This document shows, one piece after another, positions 23,210-46,310 of a DNA stretch of 64,000 nucleotides. The stretch covers positions 124,001-188,000 of the forward strand of contig NZ_NPKQ01000010.1 in NCBI RefSeq assembly GCF_008329525.1, in the 5' to 3' direction. The stretch is from Tardiphaga sp. P9-11. GTDB taxonomy: Bacteria > Pseudomonadota > Alphaproteobacteria > Rhizobiales > Xanthobacteraceae. The stretch's first letter is position 1; every line of letters starts with the position of its first letter. Both the position numbers and the translations under genes were made by a program. Under the pieces are notes generated by a model. That model saw only the letters and a program-made list of their open reading frames with translations. It searched no databases and was not told the DNA's origin.

Positions 23210-23247
23210 TTCAGGCGTCGTAGTGCAGAGACAGGAAAGCTTGTCGG

Positions 23248-24528
23248 ATGACTGATCGAACATCAGCGGAAACGCTCAATCGCCGTCGTTTTCTCGGCGC
23301 GGCAAGCCTGGCCGGCGCCGGCGCGGCATTGTCGGCGATCCCAGCACTTGCAGGCGAGACGGCGAAATCCGAAGCACTCATCACCGACGTGCAGGACTGG
23401 CAGCGCTATCTCGGCGACGGCGTCGATAAACATCCTTACGGCGTGCCCTCGAAATTCGAGAAGAACGTGATCCGGCGCGATGTTCCCTGGCTCACCGCGT
23501 CGGCGGAGTCCTCGGTCAACTTCACGCCGCTGCATGACCTCGACGGCATCATCACGCCGTCTGGGCTTTGCTTCGAGCGCCATCACGGCGGCGTGGCTGA
23601 GATCAATCCGGCCGACCATCGCCTGATGATCAACGGACTGGTCGACAAGCCACTGGTCTTCACCATGGACGACATCAAGCGGATGCCGCGCGTCAACAAG
23701 GTGTACTTCCTCGAATGTGCCGCCAATTCCGGCATGGAATGGCGCGGCAGCCAGCTCAATGGCTGCCAGTTCACGCACGGCATGATCCACAATGTGATGT
23801 ATACCGGCGTGCCGTTGAAGGTGCTGCTCGATGAGGCCGGGCTGAAGCCGAATGCCAAGTGGCTGATGCTGGAAGGCGCAGACTCTGCCGGCATGAATCG
23901 CTCGCTGCCGATCGAGAAAGCGCTGAACGATGTCATGATCGCTTTCGCCATGAATGGCGAGGCGTTGCGTCCTGAGCAGGGCTATCCGCTGCGCGCGGTC
24001 ATTCCCGGTTGGGAAGGCAATCTGTGGGTCAAGTGGCTGCGCCGCATCGAAGCTGGCGATCAGCCATGGCAGACCCGAGAGGAGACGTCGAAATATACGG
24101 ATCTGCTGGCCGACGGAAATTCTCGCAAGCATACATTCGTGATGGATGCGAAGTCGGTGGTGACCAATCCGTCGCCGCAGGCGCCGTTGAAGCACAAGGG
24201 TCGCAACGTGCTGAGCGGGCTGGCCTGGTCCGGCCGCGGCACGGTGAAGCGCGTCGATGTCTCGATGGATGGCGGGCGCAACTGGCAGACCGCGCGCATC
24301 GATGGCCCGACCTTCGATAAGTCCGTGGTGCGCTTCTATGTGGATTTCGACTGGAACGGACAGGAGCTGATGATCCAGTCCCGCGCTATCGACTCCACCG
24401 GCTATGTGCAGCCATCGAAGGACGAGCTGCGCAAGGTGCGCGGCGTCAATTCGATCTACCACAATAACGGCATTCAGACCTGGCTGGTGCATTCGGGCGG
24501 GGAGACTGAAAATGTCGAAATCGGCTAA
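23248..24528 (+). CDS. soxC: Sulfane dehydrogenase molybdenum subunit SoxC
   Basis: 426-aa molybdoenzyme of the sulfite oxidase family with a Tat signal (NRRRFLGAASLAGAG). The molybdenum-ligand cysteine is Cys157 in FLECAANSGMEW. Cofactor-site arginines and histidine occur in the FTHGMIHN to SLPIEKAL stretch, and a C-terminal dimer domain runs from about residue 310. With SoxD it removes electrons from the SoxY-bound sulfane, allowing complete oxidation of thiosulfate to sulfate. The end overlaps soxD by 17 bp. Confidence 0.96.
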   Translation: MTDRTSAETLNRRRFLGAASLAGAGAALSAIPALAGETAKSEALITDVQDWQRYLGDGVDKHPYGVPSKFEKNVIRRDVPWLTASAESSVNFTPLHDLDGIITPSGLCFERHHGGVAEINPADHRLMINGLVDKPLVFTMDDIKRMPRVNKVYFLECAANSGMEWRGSQLNGCQFTHGMIHNVMYTGVPLKVLLDEAGLKPNAKWLMLEGADSAGMNRSLPIEKALNDVMIAFAMNGEALRPEQGYPLRAVIPGWEGNLWVKWLRRIEAGDQPWQTREETSKYTDLLADGNSRKHTFVMDAKSVVTNPSPQAPLKHKGRNVLSGLAWSGRGTVKRVDVSMDGGRNWQTARIDGPTFDKSVVRFYVDFDWNGQELMIQSRAIDSTGYVQPSKDELRKVRGVNSIYHNNGIQTWLVHSGGETENVEIG

Positions 24529-25213
24529 TGCGCTGACGCTTGCATTGGCAGCGCTTCTGCTCGGCGGCATGAGCGCGCCTGGCTCGACGCAGCAGATGGC
24601 GAACAGCGACGTTACGAAGCTTGCCGCCAAGCTCGGGCTGGGCCGTGCGGCCACGGCTGACGAAATCGCGGCCTGGGACACCGACGTGCGGCCGGACGGG
24701 CGAGGTCTTCCGGTCGGCAAGGGCACTGTGAAGCAGGGCGACGATCTGTTTCAGGAGAAGTGCGCGTCCTGTCACGGCGAATTCGGACAGGGCGTCGGTC
24801 GATGGCCGGTGCTAGCCGGCGGCGCCGGGACATTGAAGGCGGACCGGCCGGACAAGACCGTGGGGTCGTTCTGGCCTGATCTCTCGACCGTGTTCGACTA
24901 CATCAAGCGGGCGATGCCCTATGGCAATGCGCAGTCGCTGACCAATGACGAGGTCTATGCGCTGACGGCCTACATTCTCAGTATGAACGATATCGTCAAG
25001 GACGAGACATTCGAACTCAACGACAAGAACTTCACGTCGATCAAGATGCCGAATGCTGCAGCGTTCTTCGAGGATGATCGTGAGACGTCCGAGAAGCAGT
25101 TCTGGAACAAGAATCCATGCATGAAGGATTGCCGGCCGGCACCGAAGGTGACCGGGCGGGCCATGGCCATCGACGTCACGCCTGACGGCAAGTCCGGTCC
25201 CAAGGTCGAGTAG
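24512..25213 (+). CDS. soxD: Sulfane dehydrogenase cytochrome subunit SoxD (single heme)
   Basis: 233-aa exported c-type cytochrome with a signal peptide (residues 1-25) and one heme motif CASCH (Cys84-His88) in FQEKCASCHGEFG, with an axial-Met candidate in IKRAMPYGN. Some SoxD proteins have two hemes; here the C-terminal half holds only CMKDC without a histidine. GGGGAG lies before the ATG inside the end of soxC. It accepts electrons from the SoxC molybdenum centre. Confidence 0.94.
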   Translation: MSKSANALTLALAALLLGGMSAPGSTQQMANSDVTKLAAKLGLGRAATADEIAAWDTDVRPDGRGLPVGKGTVKQGDDLFQEKCASCHGEFGQGVGRWPVLAGGAGTLKADRPDKTVGSFWPDLSTVFDYIKRAMPYGNAQSLTNDEVYALTAYILSMNDIVKDETFELNDKNFTSIKMPNAAAFFEDDRETSEKQFWNKNPCMKDCRPAPKVTGRAMAIDVTPDGKSGPKVE

Positions 25214-25280
25214 TGCGACGCCATTCTTCACTTGCCACCTTCGCAGACACGCCAATCACCATCATCGAGGTTTGACTAGG

Positions 25281-25670
25281 ATGACGTTCCGCTTTTCGCT
25301 GCTCGCTTTGTCGCTCGCACTGATGACAACCGATGCCATAGCGCAGGATGTTGCAGCCGGGGAGAAGTCCTTCAACAAGTGCCGCGCCTGTCATCAGGTC
25401 GGCGAGACCGCGAAGAACACCGTGGGGCCGATCCTGAACGGTCTGTTCGGGCGGAAATCCGGCACCGTGGCGGGCTATAATTATTCCGACGCCAACAAGA
25501 ACTCCGGCCTGACCTGGGACGATGCGGTATTCACCGACTATATCAAGGATCCGAAGGGCAAGATCCCTGGCACCAAGATGAGCTTTGCCGGCGTCAAGAA
25601 CGAGCAGGAGATCAAGGATCTCACCGCGTTCCTGAAGCAGTTCGCGGCGGACGGCAAGAAGGGCGGCTAA
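25281..25670 (+). CDS. Class I cytochrome c (c2/c550 type)
   Basis: 129-aa exported cytochrome: signal peptide ending TDAIA-QDV, heme motif CRACH (Cys34-His38) in FNKCRACHQVGETAKN, the GPILNGLFGRKSGTVAGYNYS region and axial Met in PGTKMSFAGV, all typical of mitochondrial-like c2. It lies directly after soxD, so it is a good candidate to carry electrons from SoxXA/SoxCD to the terminal oxidase. An in-frame TTG lies three codons upstream of the ATG. Confidence 0.93.
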   Translation: MTFRFSLLALSLALMTTDAIAQDVAAGEKSFNKCRACHQVGETAKNTVGPILNGLFGRKSGTVAGYNYSDANKNSGLTWDDAVFTDYIKDPKGKIPGTKMSFAGVKNEQEIKDLTAFLKQFAADGKKGG

Positions 25671-28560: not shown

Positions 28561-29016
28561 ATGACGTCTCCAGTTGTCTATTTTCTCAATGGTCCCAATG
28601 CCAATCTTTATGGGCTGGACAAAAGCGGTACCTATGGCCGCGAGAGTTTCGTCTCGATCAAGAAGCGCTGTGAAGACCATGCAGCATCGCTTGGCCTGAC
28701 GGTCGACTTCCGTCAGTCCAATCATGAAGGTGTTCTGGTCGACTGGATTCAGGAGGCGAGGGAGAAGGCCGAGGGGATCGTCATCAATGCCGCGGGCCTC
28801 ACTTACTCGTCGGTGCCGATCCTCGATGCGTTGCTCGCTTTCGAGGGCCCGATCATCGAGGCGCATATGAGCAATATCTGGAAGCGCGAACCATTCCGTC
28901 ATCACTCCTATGTCTCGCGCGCAGCGACAGGCGTGATCGCCGGGCTCGGCGCGCTCGGCTATGAGCTGGGGCTCACGGCGGTATCGCGTCTGATCGCCGA
29001 AAAGACCGCACAATGA
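28561..29016 (+). CDS. Type II 3-dehydroquinate dehydratase homologue with altered active site
   Basis: 151-aa protein of the AroQ fold and length (LNGPNANLYG, ..GTYGRESF, RQSNHEGVLVDWIQEA, IVINAAGL, IEAHMSN, REPFRHHSY). A gap-free comparison with the Mycobacterium tuberculosis enzyme as I recall it shows Asn12, Tyr24, Asn75, Asp88, His101 and Arg112 equivalents kept (residues 13, 25, 76, 89, 102, 113), but Arg19 replaced by Asp20 and His81 by Tyr82. Both are catalytic in true dehydroquinases. It therefore probably catalyses another reaction. It overlaps the dehydrogenase gene by 4 bp in a catabolic cluster, not in a shikimate context. Confidence 0.85.
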   Translation: MTSPVVYFLNGPNANLYGLDKSGTYGRESFVSIKKRCEDHAASLGLTVDFRQSNHEGVLVDWIQEAREKAEGIVINAAGLTYSSVPILDALLAFEGPIIEAHMSNIWKREPFRHHSYVSRAATGVIAGLGALGYELGLTAVSRLIAEKTAQ

Positions 29017-29942
29017 CTTCGGAGGTGATGGCGTTCTATAGCGCCTTAGATGACTTCGAGACGTGGCGTGCGGTGCTGGCGGCCGAAGGAATCGATCTTC
29101 GCCAGGCCGACGATATCGCCGACCCCACGCGTGTACGGCACGCGCTGGTGTGGAAGCCGCCGCATGGCTTTTTCGCGCGCTATCCAAATCTTGGTCTCGT
29201 CGTCAATCTCGGCGCCGGCGTCGACGCGCTGGTCGGGCGTGACGACCTGCCGCAGGTTCCGATCACACGCCTGTCCGATCCGAAGATGGCGCGGATGATG
29301 GCCGGCTATGTGCTGTTCGCGGTGATGCGCCATGCGCGCGACATTCCAGCTTTCGAGCGCGCCCAGCGCGAGCGCCGCTGGCACTATATTCATCCGCGCG
29401 ATCCCGAGACCATCACCGTCGGCATTCTGGGCCTTGGTGAACTCGGACTGACGGCGGCGCTCGAATGCGCCCGGCAAGGCTATCGCGTGCGCGGCTGGTC
29501 CAACACGCTGAAGTCGGTGGAGGGCATCGAGACATCGGCTAGTCTGGCCGCGTTGCCGGATATCCTGGGCGATAGTGACATTCTCGTCTGCATGTTGCCT
29601 CAGACCCCCCAAACAAGCGGGCTGCTGAATGCCGAGCGCCTGGCACAGATGAAGCGTGGCGCGGTCTTCATCAATGTTTCGCGCGGCAGCATCGTTGATG
29701 AGCCGGCCTTGATCGAGGCGCTGCGCTCCGGGCATATCGCGGAGGCCACGCTGGATGTGTTTGCCTCCGAGCCACTGTCGCCGGAGAGTCCGCTCTGGGC
29801 GATGGACAATGTGCTGATCACGCCGCATCTCGCATCGGTGGCGCTGCCGGGCTCGGCTGCGCGGCAGATCGGCGAGAATGTGCACCGGCTGCGTGCCGGA
29901 CAGGAGCTGTTAAGCCGCGTCGATCCGCGCCGGGGCTATTGA
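29013..29942 (+). CDS. D-2-hydroxyacid dehydrogenase (GhrA-like glyoxylate/hydroxypyruvate reductase)
   Basis: 309-aa NAD(P)-dependent enzyme. It has the Rossmann motif GILGLGELGLTAALECARQGYRVRGWS and catalytic Arg in NVSRGSIVDE, Glu in FASEPLSPESPL and His in ITPHLAS. The overall pattern, including MARMMAGYVLFAVMRHARDIP, matches the GhrA subgroup. Start ATG overlaps the preceding stop (ATGA), so it is co-translated with the dehydroquinase-like protein and may act on its product. Its last 33 bp overlap the convergent LysR gene. Confidence 0.9.
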   Translation: MTSEVMAFYSALDDFETWRAVLAAEGIDLRQADDIADPTRVRHALVWKPPHGFFARYPNLGLVVNLGAGVDALVGRDDLPQVPITRLSDPKMARMMAGYVLFAVMRHARDIPAFERAQRERRWHYIHPRDPETITVGILGLGELGLTAALECARQGYRVRGWSNTLKSVEGIETSASLAALPDILGDSDILVCMLPQTPQTSGLLNAERLAQMKRGAVFINVSRGSIVDEPALIEALRSGHIAEATLDVFASEPLSPESPLWAMDNVLITPHLASVALPGSAARQIGENVHRLRAGQELLSRVDPRRGY

Positions 29943-30857
29943 GCCCGGTGCGAACTGGCCGCCGACGGCAAAGGCGTCGCGCGCGTAGTCGGCGAATGTC
30001 TGTACCGCCGGTCGCGGCGCATGGCGCTTCAGACGCAGCGCCATCACATGCGTAGCTGGAAGCTTTTCGGTGATGGGCACCACGGCGACGCGGCTGCCGT
30101 CATAGCCGATGGTGGTGCGCGGCACGGCATTGTGGATCGAATATCCCTGGCCATTCCCGATCAGCCCGCGGATCAGTTCGAAGGAGCGGGTCCGGAACGA
30201 GATGCGTGGTTCGATGCCGGACGCCGTGAACAGGCTGGCGAAGTAGTCGCGCGAATGCGGCAGATCCAGCAGGATGAACGGCTCGTCGCGCATCTCAGTC
30301 AGGCTGATCGACGTCCGGCTTGCTAGAGGATGATCGGCCGACAGCACGATGAAGGGCGGCAGCTCGCAAAGCTTCTCTCCTACGATCTCGTCAGGCACGG
30401 CAAAGGAGTAGGACAGCGCGAGTTCGGTGCGGCCGGAAACCAGCCCGTCGATGATCTCCTGCTGGTCGCCTTCTTCCAGTTTCACCGAGATGCCCCGCTG
30501 ACGCGCGCGAAAGCCGGACAGCAGCCCCGGCATGAAGCGTGTGGCGAGGGTCGAAAAGCTGCCGACCACGATCTCGCCGTGCAGTGTGCTACCAAGTGAC
30601 TGGGCGCTCTGGGCAAAATCGCGTGCGTGGGCGAGCAGTAGCCGCGCATCATTCACCAGCCGCTGGCCGGCCGGGGAGAGCGTCACGCCCTTGGCGAGAT
30701 GGCGAATGAAGATCTGGACGCCGAGTTCTGCCTCCAACTGACTGAGCGCGGCGGAGATCGAGGGCTGCGACACGTTGAGACGCTTGGCGGCCTCCGTCAC
30801 GCTGCCTGCATCGGCCGTCTCAACCACATAACGCAGGGCACGAAGCGAGAACCTCAT
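29910..30857 (-). CDS. LysR-family transcriptional regulator
   Basis: 315-aa regulator: N-terminal HTH (residues 1-62: ALRYVVETADAGSVTEAAKRLNVSQPSISAALSQLEAELG) followed by a two-lobed effector domain (residues 90-295). Divergent from the monooxygenase gene 91 bp away, the classical LysR layout, so it probably controls that operon in response to its substrate. Its 3' end overlaps the dehydrogenase gene on the other strand by 33 bp. Confidence 0.92.
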   Translation of the reverse strand: MRFSLRALRYVVETADAGSVTEAAKRLNVSQPSISAALSQLEAELGVQIFIRHLAKGVTLSPAGQRLVNDARLLLAHARDFAQSAQSLGSTLHGEIVVGSFSTLATRFMPGLLSGFRARQRGISVKLEEGDQQEIIDGLVSGRTELALSYSFAVPDEIVGEKLCELPPFIVLSADHPLASRTSISLTEMRDEPFILLDLPHSRDYFASLFTASGIEPRISFRTRSFELIRGLIGNGQGYSIHNAVPRTTIGYDGSRVAVVPITEKLPATHVMALRLKRHAPRPAVQTFADYARDAFAVGGQFAPGSIAPARIDAA

Positions 30858-30948: not shown

Positions 30949-32409
30949 ATGATCCGCACGGGTGAAGAATACAAACAGGGCATTCGCGATGGCCGCGAGG
31001 TCTGGATCGATGGCGAGCGCGTCAAGGACGTGACCACGCATCCGGCGCTGAAGCCGATCATCGACGTCAAGGCCCGCATGTATGACATGGCGCGTGAAGA
31101 GCGTTACGCCGCCGACCTCACTTACGTTGAAGACAACGAGACACATTCGGTCTTCTACAAGCCGCCGACGGAACAGAAGGACTGGCACGACAAGATCAAG
31201 GCCGTCGATCACGTGATGAAGGACATCGGTGGCGTCGTGACCCGCGTCGGCGACGAGACCATCGGCGAGATGTGGTCGCTGACCGACGGCCGCGATGTGC
31301 TCGCCGAGATCGATCCGCGCTTCGCCGCCAATATCGACCGGCATATCCAGGCCGTGATCGAGAAGGACATTTTTCACGTCTCGGCCAATACCGATCCGAA
31401 GGGCGACCGCTCGCTGCCGCCGCAGCAGCAGGATCCGGACCTGATGGTCCACGTCACCCGCGAGACCGATGCCGGCATTATCATTCGCGGTGCGAAGTAT
31501 GAGACCGCCGCGGCCTATGCCGATCAGGCCTATCTGAAGCCGACTGTCGGCGCCTGGGCCAATGAGAAGCTGTCCGATTACGCGGTGGGCTGCATCGTCA
31601 AGATGGGCGCGCCGGGCGTGAAACATATCTGCCGTGGTGGCTTCGCCAATCGCAGCAGCGCCAACGCCAAGGACTATCCGCTCGCCAATCGCTTCGATGA
31701 GGTCGAGGCGCTGGTAGTGTTCGACGACGTGTTGATCCCGTGGGAAGACGTGTTCTTCTATCGCCATACACGCGCTGCGCAGTTCGTGCGTTCGACGCTG
31801 CATCGCTACTCGGCATTCCCCTACGTGCTGCGTCTCCTTTACACTGCCGACATGATGATCGGTGCGGCCATGTGGAACGCCAAGCAGACCGGCCTGGACA
31901 AGTTGCAGTCGGTTCGCGAGAAGCTTGCGGATCTCGTCTGTTATCGCGAAGGTATCAACGCGCATCTCACTGCGTCGATTGCCATGGCGGAGAAAAGCCC
32001 AGGTGGCCTTCTGATGCCGCAGCAGTCGATGCTCTATGCCGGCCGCGTGTTCGCCTGTTCGCAGTTGCCGGCGATGATGCATATCGCCCGCGAACTGTGC
32101 GGCGGCCAGATCTGCATCACCCCGAATGCCGATGCATTCGAGGCCGAAGGCAGCGGAAAGTGGCTGAACAAGTTCTATTCGCTCAATGACCAGTGGCAGG
32201 CGGACGATCGCCGCAAGCTGCTCGCCTTTGCGCGCGATCTGTTGAATTCAGATTATGCCGGTCATCGCCTGACCTTCGTGCAGTTCGCGCAGGCGCCGCA
32301 CTTCAATCATCTGGCGGCCGTCTATAACAGCTTCGACTTCGCGGGGCCGCTGGACTTCGTCAAGAAGTCGGCCGGTCTGTCAGATCGCATCGATGGAGCG
32401 AAGTCGTGA
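30949..32409 (+). CDS. 4-hydroxyphenylacetate 3-monooxygenase-family oxygenase (HpaB-like)
   Basis: 486-aa flavin-dependent monooxygenase with the HpaB/PvcC-family opening IRTGEEYKQGIRDGREVWIDGERV, the flavin loop ANTDPKGDRS, VHVTRETDAGIIIRGAK and the C-terminal ELCGGQICITPNADAFE. It uses reduced FAD from a separate reductase to hydroxylate a phenol-like or related substrate. The reductase gene overlaps its stop by 4 bp. No ring-cleavage dioxygenase is nearby, so the substrate is uncertain. AGGAG lies upstream of the ATG. Confidence 0.9.
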   Translation: MIRTGEEYKQGIRDGREVWIDGERVKDVTTHPALKPIIDVKARMYDMAREERYAADLTYVEDNETHSVFYKPPTEQKDWHDKIKAVDHVMKDIGGVVTRVGDETIGEMWSLTDGRDVLAEIDPRFAANIDRHIQAVIEKDIFHVSANTDPKGDRSLPPQQQDPDLMVHVTRETDAGIIIRGAKYETAAAYADQAYLKPTVGAWANEKLSDYAVGCIVKMGAPGVKHICRGGFANRSSANAKDYPLANRFDEVEALVVFDDVLIPWEDVFFYRHTRAAQFVRSTLHRYSAFPYVLRLLYTADMMIGAAMWNAKQTGLDKLQSVREKLADLVCYREGINAHLTASIAMAEKSPGGLLMPQQSMLYAGRVFACSQLPAMMHIARELCGGQICITPNADAFEAEGSGKWLNKFYSLNDQWQADDRRKLLAFARDLLNSDYAGHRLTFVQFAQAPHFNHLAAVYNSFDFAGPLDFVKKSAGLSDRIDGAKS

Positions 32410-32909
32410 GCATAGCAGCGCATCCGCCGGTCGAGGTCGATATCTTCCGCGACGCCATGCGGATGACGGCTTCGGGTGTGGCGGTGGTGACCACGGATGG
32501 CGAAGCCGGACGTGCAGGCGTCACGGTGTCGTCGCTGTGCTCGCTGTCGATGGAACCGCCGTCGGTGGTGTTCAGCGTTCACCGCGACAATCGCGGGCTC
32601 GAAAAGCTGCTCGCCAATGGCGCGTTCGTCGCCAACGTTCTGTCCGATGCTCAGGAGCGCGTTGCCAGCAGCTTTGCCGGGTTGATCCCCGAGCTGCGCG
32701 ACAACCGCTTTCTCGCTGGTGACTGGTCGGAATTGCTCACCGGCGCGCCGGCGCTCGATGGTGCGCTATGCAATTTCGATTGCCGCGTCGCCAGCGTGTT
32801 CGATTTCGGCTCGCATCGCATCGTCGCAGGTGAGGTGCTGAATGTTCGCAACCAAGCTGCGCTGCCCCTGATCTTCTCCGATCGCACATTCCGTCGTCTC
32901 GCCGCCTGA
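32406..32909 (+). CDS. Flavin reductase (HpaC-like)
   Basis: 167-aa protein of the flavin reductase-like domain family: FRDAMRMTASGVAVVTTDGEAGRAGVTVSSLCSLSMEPPSVVFSV, then LANGAFVANVLSDAQ and a C-terminal FGSHRIVAGEV. GTG start overlapping the preceding stop (GTGA), so strictly coupled. It supplies reduced flavin to the HpaB-like oxygenase. Confidence 0.92.
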   Translation: MSIAAHPPVEVDIFRDAMRMTASGVAVVTTDGEAGRAGVTVSSLCSLSMEPPSVVFSVHRDNRGLEKLLANGAFVANVLSDAQERVASSFAGLIPELRDNRFLAGDWSELLTGAPALDGALCNFDCRVASVFDFGSHRIVAGEVLNVRNQAALPLIFSDRTFRRLAA

Positions 32910-32920: not shown

Positions 32921-33331
32921 ATGACCACCCATCAGCGTTTTCGCAAGTTCAATACCAAAGAGGCCTATCCCGAGCAGTCGCTCGACAACGACGTCTGCAT
33001 GGTGGTGCGCGCCAACAACACCGTTTATGTGCGCGGCCAGACGGCGATGGATCTCGACGGCAAGATTGTCGGTATCGGGGATGCCGCTGCGCAGACCGAA
33101 AATGCCATGGCTTGCGCCAAGGTGCTCTTAGAAGAGGCAGGTTCGTGCCTGCAGGACGTGGTGAAGATCGTCATCTACATCACCGACCGCGCCTATCGCG
33201 AACCTGTCTATCGGGTTGTCGGCAAGTGGCTGAAGGGCGTTTATCCGGTTTCGACGGGGATCATCGTCCAGGGCCTCGCCAAACCTGAATACCTAATGGA
33301 AATCGACATCATCGCGGAAATTCCGGCGTAA
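32921..33331 (+). CDS. RidA/YjgF-family protein lacking the usual catalytic arginine
   Basis: 136-aa Rid-fold protein (VRGQTAMDLDGKIVGIGDAAAQTENAM, VVKIVIYITDRAYREPVYRV). In imine-deaminating RidA the motif after YP contains an arginine (P-x-R-S); here it reads YPVSTGIIVQGL with Ser111 at that place, while the downstream glutamate is kept (Glu127 in LMEIDII). It therefore belongs to a non-RidA subgroup that probably does not hydrolyse 2-aminoacrylate. Such proteins are often fixed in catabolic operons, as RutC is. It follows the flavin reductase by 11 bp. Confidence 0.9.
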   Translation: MTTHQRFRKFNTKEAYPEQSLDNDVCMVVRANNTVYVRGQTAMDLDGKIVGIGDAAAQTENAMACAKVLLEEAGSCLQDVVKIVIYITDRAYREPVYRVVGKWLKGVYPVSTGIIVQGLAKPEYLMEIDIIAEIPA

Positions 33332-33506: not shown

Positions 33507-34544
33507 ATGAAGCGCGCCTTGAAGTTTACTGCATTGATGTTGCTGTCGACGCTCGCGATTGGCGGGCAGGCATCCGCCCAGGAGAAGCTTGTCGTCAGCA
33601 CCTGGGGTGGAAGTTTCCGCGATCTGATTGATGAAGCGATCGCCAAGAAGTTCACCGCCGACACTGGCGTGAAGGTCGAATACATCACCGGCGGCACCAT
33701 CGACCGTCTCAACCAGGCCAAGCTCGCGGCTACCAAGCCGGAGAGCGACGTCACCTTCACGACGGCCCATGTCGGCTGGCTCTATGCCAACGACAGTCTG
33801 TTCGAGAAGCTGGACATGGCGAAGATCCCGAACGCCAGCCATCTGGTCGAACAGGCCAAGATCAGCCCGTATCACATCGGCGCATGGGCCTATGTCTACA
33901 CCATCGGCTATCTGCCCGATCAACTGCCGAAAGGCGTCAGCTTCGAGAGTTGGGAAGGTCTGTGGAATCCGGCGCTCAAGGGCATGATCTCGTCGCCCGA
34001 TTTCGATCCGAGCCATGTGATGGTAGTCGCAGCCAAGCTCTCTGGCGGCGATGCATCGAACTGGGAAGTCGGCGAAGCCAAGATGAAAGCGCTGAAGCCG
34101 AACTATAAGGCGTTCTACACCAACGACGCCAACAGCCAGCAGCTGTTCGCCACGGGTGAGACGCCAGTGCAGGTCGTGCTGTCGATGAATGCCTATTACA
34201 TGCAGGCCCAGGGCGTGCCGATCAAGCTGGCGATTCCGAAGGAAGGCGCCGTGCTCGGCGTCGACACCATGGGCATCACCAAGGGCTCGACCAAGGCGGA
34301 GCTGGCCTACAAGTTCATCAACACCGCGCTCGATCCCGAAGTGCAGGCGAAGATCGCCGAACTGAAGAAGGGCAGCCCGGTGGTGGACAACGCCAAGGTC
34401 AAGCCTGAGATCGCAGCACTGCCGGGCGTGTTCACGACCGCGGATCAGTGGGCGAAGCAGACGCTGGTGATCGATGCCAAGCTGCGTGCCGAGAAGACCG
34501 GTACCTGGCGCAAGTGGTTCACCGAAAACATCATGGCTCCGTAA
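33507..34544 (+). CDS. ABC transporter binding protein, spermidine/putrescine type (family 1)
   Basis: 345-aa exported protein: signal peptide ending GGQASA-QEK, then LVVSTWGGSFRDLIDEAIAKKFTADTGVKVEYITGG, typical of PotD/AfuA-like binding proteins. It feeds the two permeases and ATPase encoded next. A long hairpin after its stop probably stabilises its mRNA so that it exceeds the membrane components. The ligand is unknown, but the cluster suggests the monooxygenase or amidohydrolase substrate. Confidence 0.92.
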   Translation: MKRALKFTALMLLSTLAIGGQASAQEKLVVSTWGGSFRDLIDEAIAKKFTADTGVKVEYITGGTIDRLNQAKLAATKPESDVTFTTAHVGWLYANDSLFEKLDMAKIPNASHLVEQAKISPYHIGAWAYVYTIGYLPDQLPKGVSFESWEGLWNPALKGMISSPDFDPSHVMVVAAKLSGGDASNWEVGEAKMKALKPNYKAFYTNDANSQQLFATGETPVQVVLSMNAYYMQAQGVPIKLAIPKEGAVLGVDTMGITKGSTKAELAYKFINTALDPEVQAKIAELKKGSPVVDNAKVKPEIAALPGVFTTADQWAKQTLVIDAKLRAEKTGTWRKWFTENIMAP

Positions 34545-34589: not shown

Positions 34590-34622
34590 CTGACGTCACG
34601 TTCGCCCACCTTGAGTTTGTCC

Positions 34623-35477
34623 ATGAACACACGTCCATTTCTGGGATGGTTCGTTTCGCCGGCCGGCCTCGTCGCTGTGGGCCTGATCGCGGCGATGCTG
34701 GCTGTCTTTCAGTACAGCGTGCGGGCCTATATTCCCGGAACGCTCGAAGTCGGCGGATTCACCTGGGCGAATTTCGAAGCCATGCTGCGGCCGCTTTACG
34801 CCCTGGCATTCTGGAACACGGTGCTGATCTGTTTCGAGACGGCGGTGTTCACGCTGCTTCTCGCCTATCCGCTGGCCTTTGCGTTGACGCGCACCAACAG
34901 TACCGCGCTGCGCTCCTTCATCCTGATCGTGTCGGTCACGCCGCTGTTTCTCGGCGAGGTGGTGCGGACCTATTCCTGGATGATCGTGCTTGGCAATAAC
35001 GGCTTCCTGAACACGCTGCTGCTCAAGCTCGGCCTGGTGGAGCGTCCGTTGCGGATGATGTTTACCTCGGGCGGCGTGATTGCGGCCTTGGTGCATGTGA
35101 CCATGCCGATCATGGTCATCATGCTGGCCGCTGCGTTGTCGCATATCGATCGCAATTACGAGAAGGCGGCCGAAAGTCTCGGCGCAGGTCCGATCCGCAT
35201 CTTCATGACCATCACGCTGCCGCTCTCGATGCCCGGCATCGTCGCCGGCTTCTCGACCGCCTTCGCCTGGACCTTCAGCGCGTTTGCAACGCCGCAGCTG
35301 ATCGGCGGCGGCCGTGTCGCCACCGTGTCGACGCTGATCTATCAGCTCGGCTTCTCGTCGTTCAATTTCCCCTTCGCCGCCAGTCTCTCCATCATCGGCC
35401 TCGCATTGTCGCTGGCCGTGATCGCGCTGCTGAAGAAAGCCGCGAGCCCGCTTGAACGCATGGCGGGCACGACATGA
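34623..35477 (+). CDS. ABC transporter permease, PotB type
   Basis: 284-aa protein with six membrane segments and the cytoplasmic EAA-loop signature (YEKAAESLGAGPIRIFMTITLPLSMPGI) that docks the ATPase. The ATG at 34623 has only a weak ribosome site; an in-frame TTG lies 12 bp upstream. Its end overlaps the next permease by 4 bp. Confidence 0.9.
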   Translation: MNTRPFLGWFVSPAGLVAVGLIAAMLAVFQYSVRAYIPGTLEVGGFTWANFEAMLRPLYALAFWNTVLICFETAVFTLLLAYPLAFALTRTNSTALRSFILIVSVTPLFLGEVVRTYSWMIVLGNNGFLNTLLLKLGLVERPLRMMFTSGGVIAALVHVTMPIMVIMLAAALSHIDRNYEKAAESLGAGPIRIFMTITLPLSMPGIVAGFSTAFAWTFSAFATPQLIGGGRVATVSTLIYQLGFSSFNFPFAASLSIIGLALSLAVIALLKKAASPLERMAGTT

Positions 35478-36289
35478 AACGCTCACCTGTAACCCTTGCG
35501 CTGCGTTGGTCGGGCCGCGTCCTCGTTGCCGCCATTCTCCTATTCGTGCTGTTGCCTGGCGTCGTGGTGGCAATTTCGGCTTTCAACGATCGTGCGATCC
35601 TTCAATTCCCGCCGCAGTCCTGGTCGCTGCGCTGGTTCTACCGCGCTTTCTCCTATGCCGATTTTGCGAAGGGGTTCTGGAACGGCCTGACCGTGACGGT
35701 CTGGGCATCCAGCATCGCGGTCGTCGTGGGATCGGCCTTTGCCTTTGCCATTCATCGCTACAAATTCGCACTCAGGGATTTTCTCGAAGGCATTCTGCTG
35801 TCGCCACTCGTCATCCCGCATTACACCGTCGGCCTTGGCATTCTCATCCTTGCCTCGCAGACGGGGATCGAACGCGGCTTTCCGCTCGTGATCTTCGCCC
35901 ATGTGGTGATGGTGCTGCCCTTCGTGATGCGCAGCACTTACATTTCGCTGGAAAATCTCGACACGCGCCTGGAGCTGGCCGCGTCCAGTCTCGGTGCTAC
36001 GCCGCTGCGGATCCTGTTTACCGTGACGATTCCGCTGCTGATTCCGGGCTTGCTCAGCGGCTGGCTGTTCGCCGCGATTCTGTCCTTCAACGAATTCACG
36101 GCGACACTGTTCGTGAGCAGCCAGGCGACGCAGACGCTGCCGGTCGCCATGTATAATTATGTCCGCGAATTCGCGGATCCCACATTGGCCGCGCTGTCGG
36201 TCATCTACATCGTCGTGACCGCAACCTTGCTCACGATCGCCAATTCCTTCCTGGGCCTCGGGAAAATCCTGAATGTTGATGCGCACTGA
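35474..36289 (+). CDS. ABC transporter permease, PotC type
   Basis: 271-aa permease with six membrane segments and EAA loop (LELAASSLGATPLRILFTVTIPLLIPGL). It pairs with the preceding permease. Its end overlaps the ATPase start by 17 bp, showing tight translational coupling. Confidence 0.9.
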   Translation: MKRSPVTLALRWSGRVLVAAILLFVLLPGVVVAISAFNDRAILQFPPQSWSLRWFYRAFSYADFAKGFWNGLTVTVWASSIAVVVGSAFAFAIHRYKFALRDFLEGILLSPLVIPHYTVGLGILILASQTGIERGFPLVIFAHVVMVLPFVMRSTYISLENLDTRLELAASSLGATPLRILFTVTIPLLIPGLLSGWLFAAILSFNEFTATLFVSSQATQTLPVAMYNYVREFADPTLAALSVIYIVVTATLLTIANSFLGLGKILNVDAH

Positions 36290-37421
36290 TCCAATGACGG
36301 CACCCACGCCATCCGCGACGAGCGACAAGATCCGTCCGGCGGTGCAGCTCGACGGCGTCACCAAGCGCTTCGGCGATTCCATGGCGCTGCATGAAGCCTG
36401 GCTGAAGATCCAGCCGAGCGAGTTCATGACCTTGCTGGGCCCGTCCGGCTGCGGAAAGACGACGCTGCTCAATCTGGTTGCCGGATTCCTCGAAGCCGAC
36501 AATGGCGAGATCTTCATCGACGGCGATCTGGTCACGGAGACGCCCGCGCATATGCGTGAGATCGGCATCGTGTTCCAGAACTACGCGCTGTTCCCGCATA
36601 TGAGCGTCGCCAAGAACGTCGCTTACGGACTGAAGACCCGCGGCGTCGAGAAGAGGGAGATCGCGCGCCGCGTCGATGAAGCGCTGGCGCTTGTCAAGCT
36701 CACAGGTTTTGCCGATCGCAAGCCCAAACAACTTTCCGGCGGCCAGCAGCAGCGCGTCGCGCTTGCGCGGGCCCTGGTGATCAAGCCGAAGGTGCTGCTG
36801 CTCGACGAGCCGTTCTCCGCGCTCGACAAGAATCTCCGCGGCTCGATGCAGGTCGAGCTCAAGCAGATCCAGCGCGAGCTCGGCGTCACCACGATCTTCG
36901 TGACGCATGATCAGGGCGAGGCGCTGTCGATGTCGGATCGCATCGCCGTGATGTCGGCCGGGCGCATTCGCCAGATCGCGGCGCCCGACGATATCTATCG
37001 CCGTCCGGCGGATCGCTTCGTCGCGTCCTTTGTCGGCGACGCCAACATCCTCAATGGGCGTCTTGTCGAGAAGCGCGGCGATGTCGCGGTGGTCTCGGTC
37101 GGCGACATCAGCGCCGAAGTTCCTGCGGCACCGATTGCCGCGCTCTCGATCGGCGATGCCCTGGATGTCTTCGTGCGGCCGGAGCATCTCGCCGTCACGG
37201 CGCGCGGCGCTTCGGGATCGCTGCCCGGTACTGTGACGACGCAGGTGTTTCAGGGCGGCCATGTCGATCTCTATATCGAAGCTCCCGGTAGTGGGCATGA
37301 GCGCGTTCTCGTGCGGTCGCCTGGCATCGCGGCGCTGGCGGCCAGTCCGGTCGGAGCCGAGATCGGATTGACCATCGGCTCCGACGATATCGTGGCATTT
37401 CCCCCGGGGGAGACGGCGTGA
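36273..37421 (+). CDS. ABC transporter ATP-binding protein, PotA type
   Basis: 382-aa ATPase: Walker [13 protein letters not shown]-loop [10 protein letters not shown], signature [15 protein letters not shown], Walker [14 protein letters not shown]-loop THDQGEAL, and a C-terminal TOBE/regulatory domain (about residues 260-380). First ATG chosen (GGGAAA upstream); an ATG seven codons in is possible. It completes the SBP-permease-permease-ATPase importer. Confidence 0.93.
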
Positions 37422-37432: not shown

Positions 37433-38086
37433 CTAGAAGGACGGCGCGGCGCCCGGATTCATCGCGCGCGCGACATAGTCCTTCTGCTGCGGCCGGTAGC
37501 GCTCCCACAGCGCACGCAATTCGCCGATCGGTGCCTCGTGCCAGTCGACACGCAGGTCGACCACCGGCCAATCGAACATGTGGGCGACATGCAGCCCGGC
37601 CGCGTGCTCGTCGTCGGTCTCGCCGCCCGCATCAAGGCCGGCTTCCAGCGCCGACAGCAATCGCTCCGCCAGCGGTTGTTCTGCCGTCGCTTCGAATCGC
37701 GCGACCATCACGCTCGGGACTTTCTCATCGACCAGCAGATTGCCGAGCGCGAGGCAGCCGGCGCCTTGCGCAATGCCGACGATCGGCAAGGCCTGTGCGC
37801 CGGAATGCCAGGCCACTTGGCCATAGCGATCGATGACACCGACTTGCCGCCAGGCAGGCTGCGGCGTGCCTTGCGTCAGGTTGCCGAGCACTGCGCCGGC
37901 ACCGAGGCCCTGACGCAGCAGTGCGAGACCAGTCGGGCCGAGTGCGGGATCGGTGACATTCTGCGACACCACCAAACCCAGAGGTCCCACCCAGGCGCAA
38001 CGCGCCGGCACGGCAATGCTCGACGACGTAATGGCAATGCCGAACGCGCCGGTCTCCGGACAACGCGCCGAGATGGAATAGGTCAT
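37433..38086 (-). CDS. DUF1028 family protein (Ntn-hydrolase-like)
   Basis: 217-aa protein starting MTYSISARCPETGAFGIAITSSS, followed by VGPLGLVVSQNVTDPALGPTGLALL and ALPIVGIAQGAGCLALGN, the pattern of DUF1028, whose fold is assigned to the N-terminal-nucleophile hydrolases. The reaction is not established to my knowledge. The frame is open far upstream on this strand but only as antisense to the M20 gene. It is divergent from that gene with a 39-bp gap and convergent with the ATPase (11 bp), so it belongs to the cluster. Confidence 0.85.
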   Translation of the reverse strand: MTYSISARCPETGAFGIAITSSSIAVPARCAWVGPLGLVVSQNVTDPALGPTGLALLRQGLGAGAVLGNLTQGTPQPAWRQVGVIDRYGQVAWHSGAQALPIVGIAQGAGCLALGNLLVDEKVPSVMVARFEATAEQPLAERLLSALEAGLDAGGETDDEHAAGLHVAHMFDWPVVDLRVDWHEAPIGELRALWERYRPQQKDYVARAMNPGAAPSF

Positions 38087-38125: not shown

Positions 38126-39304
38126 ATGATCGATCGAATAGCTCAAATACTTTGCGATCTGATCAGTATTGAAAGTATAAGCACGAATTCGAATCTCGAT
38201 ATCATCGAGTATATCGAGCGGATACTTGCGTCGTCGGGCGTGTCTTCGCGCCGCGTGCCGTCGCCTGATGGCTGCAAGGCCTCGCTGCTCGCGACCATCG
38301 GTCCTGTGGATCGTCCCGGTGTGGTCCTGTCGGCGCATACGGATGTGGTGCCGGTGGAGGGGCAAGCGTGGGCCGTGCCGCCATTCGCTGGCGTCATCCG
38401 TGACGAGCGCATCTATGGTCGCGGTGCGACCGACATGAAGGGTTTCCTCGCCGTCGTTCTCGCAAGCGTACCGCGTCTGAAGGAAACCGCGACAGCTGCG
38501 CCCGTGCATCTCGCGTTTTCCTATGATGAGGAAGTGGGATGCCGCGGCGCGCCCGATCTGGTGCGTGCGCTCATGCAATCTGTTGCACCACCGGCACTCG
38601 CCATCATAGGCGAACCCACCACGATGCGCGTCGTTCGCGCGCACAAGGGCAAGGTCGCGCGCCGCCTGACAGTAACAGGCCGCGGCGGTCATTCGGCGAT
38701 GCCGCATCGTGCGGCCAATGCGGTCGATGCGGGCGTTGCGATCGCGCATGCGCTCCGTGGCTTCGCTGATGAAGAAGTCGCGCGTGGCGGCGATGCGGCG
38801 TTCGATCCACCATATACGACCATTCACGTCGGCTCGCTGCATGGCGGCAGCATGGTCAATCTCGTGCCGGAACGGGCTTTGCTGGAATACGAAATCCGTA
38901 CCATGCCCGGCCGTGACGCGGGCGAAATTCTCGCGCGGATCGACGAGTTGGTTGCGCGAGAGCGCGATCGGCTCCGCGCCAATGCGCCGGAGGCTGACAT
39001 CGTCTCCGAGGAACTGTCGGCCTATCCCGGGCTCGATACTGCTGCCGATGCCTCCATGACGCGTCTGGTCGCAGGAATGGCAGGCGATACGCAACCCGCA
39101 ACCACAGTCGCCTTCGGTACCGAGGCCGGTCTCTACGCAGAGGCGGGGATTCCGACGCTGGTCTGTGGACCCGGCGATATGGCGCGCGGGCACAAACCCG
39201 ATGAATGGATCGGTTTCGACGAACTCGCGGCTGCGAACGCGATGATGGACAGGCTGGCGGCTTTGCTGCGTCGGCCGAGTGAAGACTGGATACGCGTATC
39301 ATGA
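38126..39304 (+). CDS. M20-family metallo-amidohydrolase (ArgE/acetylornithine deacetylase type)
   Basis: 392-aa enzyme with M20 metal ligands: His71 and Asp73 in LSAHTDVVP, Asp103 in GRGATDMKG, Glu135-Glu136 in YDEEVGC, a dimerisation domain with GRGGHSAMPHRAANAVD, and a terminal FGTEAGLYAEAG and GHKPDE. It probably hydrolyses an N-acyl amino acid or amide released in the pathway, rather than serving arginine synthesis. The first ~35 codons are AT-rich compared with the rest. The stop overlaps the next gene by 4 bp. Confidence 0.9.
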   Translation: MIDRIAQILCDLISIESISTNSNLDIIEYIERILASSGVSSRRVPSPDGCKASLLATIGPVDRPGVVLSAHTDVVPVEGQAWAVPPFAGVIRDERIYGRGATDMKGFLAVVLASVPRLKETATAAPVHLAFSYDEEVGCRGAPDLVRALMQSVAPPALAIIGEPTTMRVVRAHKGKVARRLTVTGRGGHSAMPHRAANAVDAGVAIAHALRGFADEEVARGGDAAFDPPYTTIHVGSLHGGSMVNLVPERALLEYEIRTMPGRDAGEILARIDELVARERDRLRANAPEADIVSEELSAYPGLDTAADASMTRLVAGMAGDTQPATTVAFGTEAGLYAEAGIPTLVCGPGDMARGHKPDEWIGFDELAAANAMMDRLAALLRRPSEDWIRVS

Positions 39305-40308
39305 AGAACGAAGTGTCGACGATCATGACGACAATGCAGGCGATCATCGCAACACAGGCCGGCGGTCCCGATGTCCTGGCGCAGGTCGAGCGGCCGCTGC
39401 CGGTGCCAGGCCCGGGCGAGGTCCTGATCGAAGTCGCGGCCGCCGGCGTCAATCGCCCGGACCTGATGCAGCGAAGTGGCGCGGTGCTGTTGCCGGCCGG
39501 GGTCACCGATGTGCTGGGGCTTGAGGTTGCCGGCCGCGTGGTCGGTGGCGACGCCGCACTGCAGGGGCAGGCGGTGATGGCGCTCGTCAAGGGCGGCGGC
39601 TACGCGCGCTATTGCATCGCCAGGGCGACGCATTGCCTCGCCGTGCCGGATGGCCTGACGATGGAGCAGGCGGCGGCATTGCCCGAAGCGCTCTTCACCG
39701 TCTGGCACAATCTGTTCGAACGCGGCCGGTTGTCGAAGGGTGAGACGGTGCTGGTGCATGGCGGTGCCAGTGGTATCGGCACCATCGCGATCCGCATGGC
39801 CATCGCTCGTGGCGCGACGGCCATCGCAACGGTCGGTAGCGATACCAAGAAGAAGGCGGTGGAAGCGCTTGGCGCCATCGCCATCAATTATCGTACCGAC
39901 GACTTCGTTGTCGCTGCGCGCGACGCCACAAGCGGGCGCGGCGTCGATATCGTGCTCGATATCGTCGGTGGTTCCTATGTGGCGCGCAATCTCGATGCCC
40001 TCGCGCCGGGCGGACGGCATGTCAGCCTGTCCTTCATGGAAGGCGGCGTCGTGCCGATCGATCTCGGGCTGGTGATGCGGAAGGGATTGTATCTGACGTC
40101 GTCGACGCTGCGGCCGAAGTCCGACGAGGAGAAGACCGCAATCGCTGCCGCGCTCCGCGCCGAGGTGCTGCCGCTGGTGGCATCTGGCGAGGTGAGGCCG
40201 CTGATCTGGCGTCAGTTGCCTCTCGGGGATGCTGTGCAAGCTCACCGCATTCTGGAAGCCAATGAAAACATCGGCAAGGTGCTGCTGTTGCCAACCGCCG
40301 CCTCTTGA
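39301..40308 (+). CDS. NAD(P)H:quinone oxidoreductase (zinc-free MDR family)
   Basis: 335-aa protein of the quinone oxidoreductase branch of the medium-chain dehydrogenases: PGPGEVLIEVAAAGVNRPDLMQRSG, VLVHGGASGIGTIAIRMA as nucleotide-binding motif, and LFTVWHNLFERGRLSKGE. The structural-zinc cysteines are absent. ATG 39301 overlaps the M20 stop; ATGs at 39325 and 39334 are alternatives. Likely reduces an enone or quinone intermediate. Confidence 0.88.
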   Translation: MKNEVSTIMTTMQAIIATQAGGPDVLAQVERPLPVPGPGEVLIEVAAAGVNRPDLMQRSGAVLLPAGVTDVLGLEVAGRVVGGDAALQGQAVMALVKGGGYARYCIARATHCLAVPDGLTMEQAAALPEALFTVWHNLFERGRLSKGETVLVHGGASGIGTIAIRMAIARGATAIATVGSDTKKKAVEALGAIAINYRTDDFVVAARDATSGRGVDIVLDIVGGSYVARNLDALAPGGRHVSLSFMEGGVVPIDLGLVMRKGLYLTSSTLRPKSDEEKTAIAAALRAEVLPLVASGEVRPLIWRQLPLGDAVQAHRILEANENIGKVLLLPTAAS

Positions 40309-40356: not shown

Positions 40357-40782
40357 ATGGCAACCACTAAAGCCTCTCTCAAACTGACACACCAGGGCGC
40401 ACTCAAGGCGCTGGCTGGTGCCGTCGCCAAGGCGGAAGCGCTCGGCGTGCCGCAGAACATCACCATCGTCGACGACGGCGGCAATCTACTGGCATTCGTC
40501 CGAATGGACGACGCCAAACTGCTGTCGCGGGAAACCTCGATGTCGAAGGCCATCACCGCTGCGTCGCATCGGCAGCCGACATCGCGGCTCAATCCCGCCG
40601 ACGAGATCAAACTTGCCATAGCGGGCGGCGGTCGGCTCACCAATCTCGAAGGCGGACTGCCGATCGTGATTGCAGGCCAGTGCGTCGGTGCGGTCGGCGT
40701 CGGGTCGGGCACCGGCGCGCAGGACGTCGAAGTCGCGCGAGCCGCACTGGCGGCGATCGACGCGGAGGATCAGAAGCCATGA
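40357..40782 (+). CDS. GlcG/HbpS-family (DUF336) cytoplasmic protein
   Basis: 141-aa protein without signal peptide: HQGALKALAGAVAKAEALGVPQNITIVDDGGNLLAFVRMDDAKLLS, GLPIVIAGQCVGAVGVGSGTGAQD. It is related to the exported homologue at 18447 but shorter and cytosolic. Family members occur as accessory proteins in many aromatic and glycolate operons, with unclear roles. Stop overlaps the next start (ATGA). Confidence 0.88.
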   Translation: MATTKASLKLTHQGALKALAGAVAKAEALGVPQNITIVDDGGNLLAFVRMDDAKLLSRETSMSKAITAASHRQPTSRLNPADEIKLAIAGGGRLTNLEGGLPIVIAGQCVGAVGVGSGTGAQDVEVARAALAAIDAEDQKP

Positions 40783-41399
40783 CCGATAAGATCGAACTTT
40801 TCTATGCGCCGACATCGCCTTATGTCCGCAAGGTCATGGCCTGTGCGATCGAACTCGGGATCGCCGACCGTATCGCGAAGCTGCCCAGTGCCGCGCATCC
40901 GTTAAAGCGCGATGTGCGGATCGCGGGTTTCAATCCGCTGGCCAAGGTGCCGGCCGCCCGGCTTGCCGACGGCACGCTGCTGTTCGACAGCCGGGTGATT
41001 TGCGAATATCTCGACGACCTCGGACACGGCGCGCTGTTTCCGCGCGGGCCTGAGCGTTGGAAGGTGCTCACCGAGCAGGCGCTCGGCGATGGCCTGCTCG
41101 ATGCTGCGCTGCTCACGCGTTACGAGAATACGTGCCGGAGCGACGAGATCAGATCGGCGGAGTGGATCGATGGTCAGATGACCAAGATCGCCGCCGCGCT
41201 GGATGAGATGAACAAGACCGTTGCCGTGTTCGGCGCACGCATCAACATAGGCAGCCTCACCATAGCCTGTGCGCTCGGCTATCTGGATTTCCGTTTTGCG
41301 TCCTACGACTGGCGCACGTCACGACCGGCGCTGGCCGACTGGTTCGCAATCACGTCACAGCGGCCGTCAATGCGGGATACGTTTCCGACTGAGGGATAA
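40779..41399 (+). CDS. Glutathione S-transferase family protein
   Basis: 206-aa protein with an N-terminal thioredoxin-like GSH-binding domain (IELFYAPTSPYVRKVMACAIELG, NPLAKVPAARLADGTLLFDSRVICEYLDDLG) and a C-terminal helical domain (about residues 85-205). The Ser-Pro-Tyr near residue 12 supplies the likely catalytic residue. Last gene of the cluster; GSTs in such clusters isomerise or detoxify electrophilic intermediates. Confidence 0.9.
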   Translation: MTDKIELFYAPTSPYVRKVMACAIELGIADRIAKLPSAAHPLKRDVRIAGFNPLAKVPAARLADGTLLFDSRVICEYLDDLGHGALFPRGPERWKVLTEQALGDGLLDAALLTRYENTCRSDEIRSAEWIDGQMTKIAAALDEMNKTVAVFGARINIGSLTIACALGYLDFRFASYDWRTSRPALADWFAITSQRPSMRDTFPTEG

Positions 41400-43818: not shown

Positions 43819-44232
43819 CTATTCGCGCAACTCGTATTGATGTCGCAACAGCTGAACCATGTCCTGGACCCGCTGGCGCCACGCAGCTGCGTCAGGCACC
43901 GCGCCGGCGGGCGGCGTGATGCGTAACATCGCGTTCCATGGGCGCGTGCCATAGACGACCACCTCGAAGCCGGCTGTCGGACAGCCATCGATACCCTTTA
44001 GCGCGCGCAGGATCACATCCGCGATTTCCGAGCGGCCAAGCGTGCGGGTGCTTTCGACCGCAAGTTGCGGCTCCAGCGACGCCGCCGGGTTCTCCTCTGC
44101 GACGACCGGATCGAAACCATCTCTGGCGTCCGAGTCTGGCTCAGGCCTGATCGGTTCGGGGTCACCCGGCCTTTTCATGAGTCGATCGACCAGACCGAGC
44201 AGGCCTCGATCGCGTTGGGGCGTTTCTTTCAC
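43819..44232 (-). CDS. Hypothetical conserved-looking protein
   Basis: 137-aa protein with a charged, proline-rich N-terminal half and a C-terminal domain (from about residue 68: SEIADVILRALKGIDGCPTAGFEVVVYGTRPWNAMLRITPPAG) ending in a helix. No signal peptide. Convergent with the GrlR-like gene, 9 bp apart. No known function recognised. Confidence 0.7.
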   Translation of the reverse strand: MKETPQRDRGLLGLVDRLMKRPGDPEPIRPEPDSDARDGFDPVVAEENPAASLEPQLAVESTRTLGRSEIADVILRALKGIDGCPTAGFEVVVYGTRPWNAMLRITPPAGAVPDAAAWRQRVQDMVQLLRHQYELRE

Positions 44233-44428
44233 GTCTGCAATCCAATACCAGCGGCGATATGCGATCTCACATCTTCCGCAGGACGTTGTCGACGGGTCCC
44301 AGGCGAGTTGCGGTGCACAAATGCGCTGCGGGTTGGCTTTGTCGCAAAAGTTTCATCCGCGGCCTATAGTGGGGGCGTCACGCATTCCCCTCAGACTTCG
44401 ATGCGCCGGCCTTAACGCCTGCGTCAGG

Positions 44429-46306: not shown

Positions 46307-46310
46307 GCCG

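Follow-up and report, generated by a model that had tools for sequence, protein, structure and literature searches.

A dehydroquinase-fold protein with a changed active site, and probably a changed substrate, in a conserved catabolic gene cluster

To our knowledge, the type II dehydroquinase fold carries out one reaction only. The window analysed here, the whole stretch of 64,000 nucleotides, holds a gene for a protein of this fold in which aspartate and tyrosine stand in place of an arginine and a histidine of the active site, and the gene lies in a cluster of catabolic type. Does such a protein still act on 3-dehydroquinate, or has the fold been taken over for another substrate? The substrate of the AroQ variant is probably not dehydroquinate, because the protein forms a distinct branch, has an altered active site and travels with a cluster for the breakdown of nitrogen compounds. 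If so, an enzyme fold has been repurposed, the records of the clade that are annotated 'type II 3-dehydroquinate dehydratase' are misnamed, and the changes reveal active-site positions that decide which substrate a long-studied drug target accepts. The conserved cluster would also offer a route into an undescribed catabolic pathway of soil, plant-associated, marine and enteric bacteria, Klebsiella plasmids included.

The gene and its neighbourhood

The open reading frame was found again in the ORF list at the position given by the first-pass annotation and encodes a 151-residue protein of the type II dehydroquinase fold. Its ATG at 28561 agrees with the starts of homologues; the mechanically called frame opens earlier, at a TTG (28486). 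An AlphaFold2 monomer model built from 28 rows (pLDDT 86.1, pTM 0.85) is uncertain in the lid, where residues 16-19 fall below 50, and the 50 PDB matches listed for it by Foldseek are dehydroquinases, the best being 1d0i (TM 0.86, 50% identity). In known type II dehydroquinases, which assemble as dodecamers, the active site is completed by a neighbouring subunit. The gene had been described as fused by an ATGA overlap to the next one; the overlap is real (29013-29016) and joins the end of the AroQ-like gene to the start of a 2-hydroxyacid dehydrogenase gene, but these are two overlapping genes and there is no protein fusion. The catabolic cluster proposed around it is present, with genes for uptake, an oxygenase, a RidA-like protein, a DUF1028 protein and an M20 enzyme, as follows.

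28561..29016, + strand: AroQ-like protein with Asp20 and Tyr82 (PF01220, 164.6 bits by profile search; residue alignment; tree clade)
29013..29942, + strand: GhrA-type 2-hydroxyacid dehydrogenase, ATGA overlap (PF02826; GhrA model below its cut-off)
29910..30857, - strand: LysR-type regulator (PF00126, PF03466)
30949..32409, + strand: HpaB-family flavin monooxygenase (PF11794, PF03241; below the HpaB equivalog cut-offs)
32406..32909, + strand: flavin reductase (PF01613)
32921..33331, + strand: RidA-like protein without the conserved Arg (PF01042; alignment, column counts)
33507..34544, + strand: PotD-type solute-binding protein (PF13416)
34611..35477, + strand: ABC permease 1 (PF00528)
35474..36289, + strand: ABC permease 2 (PF00528)
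36273..37421, + strand: ABC ATPase (PF00005, PF08402)
37433..38086, - strand: DUF1028 protein, within a longer mechanical ORF (translation; same-strand DUF1028 match in its own genome)
38126..39304, + strand: M20 deacylase, acetylornithine deacetylase group (PF01546; TIGR01892 at 377 bits, above cut-off)
39301..40308, + strand: quinone-oxidoreductase-like enzyme (PF00107, PF13602; TIGR02824)
40357..40782, + strand: HbpS/GlcG-like protein (PF03928)
40779..41399, + strand: glutathione S-transferase-like protein (PF13409 and PF13410 on the longer ORF 40680-41399; NCBIfam on 40779-41399 below cut-off)

The dehydrogenase contains the general 2-hydroxyacid dehydrogenase domain and scores 185.3 bits on the NCBIfam GhrA model, below its cut-off of 403; the monooxygenase likewise stays below the TIGR02309 cut-off (210.3 bits against 480.2), and its closest PDB sequence is 2yyk, which we take to be a T. 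thermophilus protein. Upstream of the cluster, at 21512-25670, the translations include ORFs resembling SoxB, a SoxC-type sulfite dehydrogenase and c-type cytochromes, and beyond it, at 44042-47096, there are more ABC transporter genes and an SBP_bac_6 binding protein.

The RidA-like protein is altered at a hallmark residue of its own family. In a HMMER alignment to 5yu2, the column facing the Arg of PARSCVEV holds Ser in 77 of the 84 cluster proteins and Cys in the other 7, and the motif [SC]TG occupies the arginine site in 84/84 cluster copies. This arginine is essential for imine hydrolysis, according to the available portion of PMC4433059, and the window protein (32921-33331) lacks this mark of a RidA imine deaminase. 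With the arginine replaced in both, two proteins of the cluster, the AroQ variant and the RidA-like protein, are without their hallmark arginine, and we infer that these paired losses reflect an unusual intermediate.

Active-site residues and descent

Aligned by HMMER to the S. coelicolor dehydroquinase, the window protein places Asp20 opposite the Arg of GQRQPEIYG and Tyr82 opposite the His of YSHTS, which bears out the two replacements as first read. The alignment had been called gap-free; this is plausible for M. tuberculosis 1h05, whose matched ranges (5-141 and 4-140, compared as ranges only and not as residue letters) are of the same length, but against S. coelicolor there are single-residue gaps near the start and at 'feg.piie'. 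A wider alignment of 122 rows was obtained from 143 matches by reduction to distinct strings (some near-identical), removal of matches shorter than 110 residues and addition of the S. coelicolor row. It confirms that Asn13, Tyr25, Asn76, Asp89, His102 and Arg113 are kept in the window protein; N13, Y25, N76, D89, H102, S104 and R109 are invariant in 122/122 rows, and position 113 is Arg in the 88 rows that have Asp20 and Tyr82. At positions 20 and 82 the rows divide into 88 Asp/Tyr, one Gly/Tyr, one Glu/Tyr, 28 Arg/His, three Arg/Phe and one Arg/Ser. Position 82 is thus Tyr in 90/90 rows of the clade and His in 28/32 of the others, and position 20 is Arg in all 32 remaining rows. The Asp20/Tyr82 pair put forward as a mark of the group holds in 88 of the 90 Tyr82 rows, but Asp20 is not absolute, the other two having Gly and Glu; since position 20 is Asp, Glu or Gly and never Arg within the clade, the loss of the arginine may outweigh the gain of the aspartate. 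By column counts, eight positions tell the 90 Tyr82 rows apart from the remaining 32: A14 (89, against L14 in 31), Y17 (90, L17 in 32), D20 (88, R20 in 32), S29 (89, T29 in 31), F30 (87, L30 in 31), Y82 (90, H82 in 28), M103 (88, I103 in 23) and W107 (86, H107 in 24).

What these positions do in the type II enzyme is described in the available part of PMC6011038. Arg19, Tyr24 and Asp88' are essential, as established by modification and mutagenesis; His101 acts as the acid; the carboxylate is gripped by Asn75, by Ser103 and by the main chain at 102-103; the C5 hydroxyl is bound by His81, through a hydrogen bond, and by Arg112, and the C4 hydroxyl by Asp88'; and Arg19 touches Tyr24, its main contact in one enzyme being the ketone. 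The window protein retains the active-site residues named in that part except the equivalents of Arg19 and His81, with Asp20 in place of the essential arginine and Tyr82 in place of the histidine that binds the C5 hydroxyl, while the essential tyrosine and aspartate are present as Tyr25 and Asp89. It had been said to have lost two catalytic residues. Both are indeed replaced, but His81 binds the substrate and is not shown to be essential in that part of the source; because the essential set given there is Arg19, Tyr24 and Asp88', one essential and one substrate-binding residue have been replaced.

The Asp20/Tyr82 pair does mark a clade. In a 91-row tree built with columns 20 and 82 removed, all 41 Tyr82 rows fall together (99% bootstrap, 96% SH-aLRT), and a quicker 72-row tree gives the same grouping (94% SH-aLRT); the inner forks are unsure because the columns are few for the number of rows and there are long branches, as the program warned. 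Asp20 and Tyr82 are also found in the deep members L118/L143 and L187/L233, where they stand alongside T14, Q100 and F107. Separate origins of the pair were considered and rejected, these deep outliers lying in the same clade and having the same cluster type. Against six relatives dN/dS is 0.027-0.065 (10 of 12 estimates obtained, with two numerical failures), and this low ratio, together with the invariant residues of the catalytic site, rules out decay or a pseudogene.

Family models separate the group as well. On the NCBIfam equivalog TIGR01088 (cut-off 169.85) the window protein scores 154.2 and four further variants 145.4-153.4, so that five out of five fall below, while four out of four Arg/His proteins pass (180.7-203.7) and the Phe82 paralogue L002 reaches 169.0; the looser NF003806 accepts the window protein as a dehydroquinase (184.4 against a cut-off of 171). 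No proven dehydroquinase with Asp20 and Tyr82 came up, positions 20 and 82 having been read in part of 39 PDB sequences. One candidate was the K. pneumoniae type II enzyme (code 3036) assayed in PMC4314829, which the available part of that paper gives as 16.5 kDa, 51.5% identical to the C. glutamicum enzyme and close to the Citrobacter and Enterobacter enzymes of the same study. Its identity with the variant was judged unlikely. Between the window protein and C. glutamicum chains the identity is 42-44%; four Arg/His enterobacterial copies have masses of 16.58, 16.60, 16.67 and 17.22 kDa (with script-chosen starts), the Klebsiella plasmid variant 16.25 kDa and another variant 16.27 or 16.47 kDa depending on the start, masses alone not being decisive.

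Genomes and partner genes

The genome of the window has three type II genes, namely the variant, a canonical Arg/His copy (L003), which answers the suggestion that a second aroQ be sought, and an Arg/Phe copy (L002); no type I dehydroquinase gene was found in it. An Arg/His aroQ is also present in 17/17 genomes with the variant. Named loci led to a set of 11 genomes: in nine of them a second type II gene, of the Arg/His kind, is present besides the variant, and the other two have a type I gene, the type II matches of these two being the variant alone or the variant and a short fragment; G1103, among the 11, has the same coordinates as G308, among the 17, and one genome is therefore common to both sets. 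In the genomes checked, the shikimate step has candidates besides the variant, since other dehydroquinase genes are present. The Arg/Phe copy L002 (G000:C28:12529-12945), which adjoins an ORF read as aspartate ammonia-lyase, belongs with L128 and L025 to AroQ proteins having Arg20, Phe82 and His or Tyr for Arg113; this Phe82 group is possibly a second repurposed branch.

Six of 398 genomes of the phylum score at least 255.9 bits on the variant profile, the next best reaching at most 197.5, and G091 (179.8 bits in this sample) is a seventh carrier by its residues. Among 397 genomes of the order, 13 score at least 257.3, and G091 (220.3) and G978 (205.2) are added by residues; among 385 of the class the window's own genome alone stands out, and the 28 next best new loci all have Arg20. 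Because residues were examined in no more than 30 loci from each search, low-scoring variants may be missed. Of 431 plasmid records that gave a match, 134 are at 60% identity or more, and the plasmid records matching the protein query include 106 from Klebsiella and seven from Escherichia. The cluster of L011 (NZ_CP012572.1), with the alternative FAD monooxygenase (FADox), lies on a conjugative IncF Klebsiella plasmid, and one of 5,426 complete E. coli genomes carries the Klebsiella plasmid gene, on a plasmid.

Partner genes were sought in 93 loci and the window; removal of six loci shorter than 18 kb and of the second copies L123, L124 and L126 left 85 distinct long loci. Most loci were cut at 10 kb per side, were found by similarity to the variant and include close kin, and the following figures therefore express association and not natural frequency: RidA 79, ATPase 75, DUF1028 75, GhrA 67, binding protein 67, FADox 62, M20 60, QOR 58, GST 56, LysR 27, HpaB 20, flavin reductase 19, LOX 18, class II aldolase 17, arylmalonate-decarboxylase-like 16, SBP3 14, PhyH 14, TRAP 10 and GlcG 7. 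In the genome samples, which were drawn without regard to the cluster, a DUF1028 match stands no more than 11 kb from the variant in 17/17 genomes, by printed coordinates. By contrast, 18 control aroQ loci (L004, L005, L128-L142 and L144) gave no match to RidA, DUF1028, HpaB, FADox, M20, GhrA, QOR or GST, and some gave matches to LysR, permease or ABC ATPase; this control set is somewhat weaker than the test set, since five of its loci hold only about 5 kb per side.

The first-pass annotation had asked whether GhrA and HpaB genes accompany the clade. GhrA does so in 67/85 loci, but HpaB is ruled out as a defining partner, a FAD monooxygenase of another family taking its place in the 62 FADox loci. 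HpaB and FADox never occur in one locus, and neither is found in 3/85. Over 40 labelled rows of the AroQ tree the exchange takes six changes, against a mean of 11.3 and a minimum of 8 in 200 shuffles, which suggests that two unrelated oxygenases fill one step of the pathway. The transport genes differ among loci (two ABC types, TRAP) and 18/85 loci have no GhrA within the stretch, so that downstream steps may differ.

L239 and L246 hold FADox-RidA-DUF1028 modules without an AroQ match, one of them with a class II aldolase and PhyH. The DUF1028 locus L237 has an ORF taken for a gamma-glutamyltransferase and peptide-type ABC genes (by ORF starts). Next to the cluster of L143 are CT_A_B and CT_C_D carboxyltransferase-domain genes and a HutD gene (10225-12876 and 3744-4361), and an ORF read as LamB/YcsF makes, with the carboxyltransferase-domain genes, a 5-oxoprolinase-like set. 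The cluster of the deep member L233 contains, at 6864-8977, a Nit6803-like nitrilase (229.1 against 502.6 on the Nit6803 model) and an OxdA-like aldoxime dehydratase, both below the curated cut-offs; a relative of this dehydratase is found at L039:15346. The aldoxime dehydratase and nitrilase lead was abandoned as too rare, both enzymes occurring in L233 and a dehydratase relative in L039. A literature search outside most subscription journals found no description of the variant, the cluster or DUF1028, which is weak evidence.

Substrate, mechanism and known systems

The explanation that we favour, and hold to be probable, is a type II dehydroquinase fold repurposed for a substrate other than 3-dehydroquinate with the same type of chemistry. 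It is based on the fold, the single clade, purifying selection, the coexisting canonical dehydroquinases and the steady association with the cluster. The carboxylate would be gripped by Asn76 and Ser104, the tyrosinate of Tyr25 would act as base, primed by Asp89' of the neighbouring subunit, and His102 would serve as acid for the leaving hydroxyl, with a structural water held at the Asn13 site. In this way water may be taken off, or added onto, a carboxylated beta-hydroxy carbonyl or imino intermediate. In known enzymes Arg20 touches the tyrosine and the side of the ketone, and His82 meets the C5 hydroxyl; their loss, together with the changes L14A, I103M and H107W, would suit a substrate that lacks this hydroxyl and has another group, perhaps one with nitrogen, at the ketone position. 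Such an intermediate could arise by ABC uptake followed by oxidation by the flavin monooxygenase and C-N cleavage by the M20, DUF1028 and RidA-like proteins, perhaps in that order, and the overlapping dehydrogenase may reduce the resulting 2-oxo acid. The kept residues grip a carboxylate, draw a proton from beside a carbonyl by way of the tyrosinate and protonate the leaving hydroxyl, whereas the ketone side and the C5 hydroxyl are met by the changed ones. It is therefore most economical to propose that water is eliminated or added as before, on another carboxylated substrate. The first-pass idea of a fold re-used for a different dehydration, hydration or isomerisation is thus backed by context and conservation, as an inference and not as proof. 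The association with the cluster shows that a pathway is shared and not which reaction is run, and modules without the variant exist.

It is unlikely that the protein remains a 3-dehydroquinate dehydratase whose lid has been re-tuned, in a pathway that passes through dehydroquinate or in a supply of shikimate under catabolic regulation. The fold, the tyrosine base, the histidine acid, the carboxylate pocket and Asp' are kept, and dehydroquinate, too, would fit such a pocket and acid/base set; NF003806, a subfamily model, accepts the protein. In the available part of PMC4314829, type II enzymes have kcat values from 4 to more than 200 per second, and the B. subtilis enzyme, with Phe for Tyr24, is still active, so that loss of an essential residue need not kill activity and some tolerance is apparent. 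Both AroQ copies of R. solanacearum serve the shikimate pathway, as the available portion of PMC10171560 reports, and a second aroQ alone does not therefore signify a new function. On the other hand, the essential arginine and the C5-hydroxyl-binding histidine are gone from 90/90 Tyr82 rows, another dehydroquinase is present in 17/17 genomes, and the co-travelling genes are of nitrogen-compound type.

A distinctly improbable alternative is that the fold has moved to other chemistry, such as isomerisation, hydrolysis or decarboxylation, in which Asp20 and Tyr82 would be the new catalytic groups. New residues are fixed at the eight columns, several of them in the lid and pocket, and other enzymes of the cluster also have altered hallmark residues; but Tyr25, Asp89, His102 and Asn76 do not vary, which favours the old type of reaction, and position 20 can be Gly. 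The lost arginine and the tight gene coupling with the dehydrogenase might point to a protein that serves the cluster without catalysis, as a scaffold or a regulatory subunit, but this is very improbable given catalytic residues invariant across wide divergence and a very low dN/dS.

For the favoured change of substrate, a nitrogen at the ketone position might account for the loss of the arginine. A bolder version, possible but doubtful, is that the variant is the first known non-dehydroquinase of its fold, a hydratase or dehydratase of a carboxylated imine or enamine intermediate, and that its arginine was removed because the substrate has nitrogen where dehydroquinate has the ketone. The pathway around it, partly carried on plasmids, would then be a widespread and undescribed route for some common natural product that contains nitrogen. 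As substrates, aminoshikimate- or mycosporine-like rings are no more than chemical guesses; plain mycosporines are disfavoured because the carboxylate pocket is kept, and a literature search for a mycosporine link gave no relevant paper.

Four known systems may be compared with the cluster. The Nit1C nitrilase/cyanide cluster, to which we take a TIGR04046 FAD monooxygenase and a nitrilase to be tied, was compared by these two genes alone; the alternative FAD monooxygenase matches TIGR04046 (350.8 against a cut-off of 498.35), but a nitrilase is found in one locus only, L233. The Rut pyrimidine pathway supplies the best NCBIfam models for the reductase (RutF) and the RidA-like protein (RutC), yet both are far below cut-off (124.3 of 254.75 and 56.2 of 169.1), and we know of no Rut counterpart of the AroQ variant, M20, DUF1028 or GST. 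With the two-component HpaB/HpaC flavin monooxygenases the window shares the HpaB_N and HpaB domains and an adjoining flavin reductase gene, although its protein is far below the HpaB equivalog cut-offs and most loci carry the TIGR04046-like enzyme instead. With type II AroQ/DHQ2 itself, represented by the S. coelicolor enzyme 1d0i, the variant has in common the fold, about 50% identity, the tyrosine base and histidine acid, the Asn/Ser carboxylate pocket, Asp', Arg109 and Arg113. It differs in the changes of Arg to Asp and His to Tyr, in A14, Y17, S29, F30, M103 and W107, in its score below TIGR01088, and in its place within a catabolic cluster of genomes that also carry a canonical copy.
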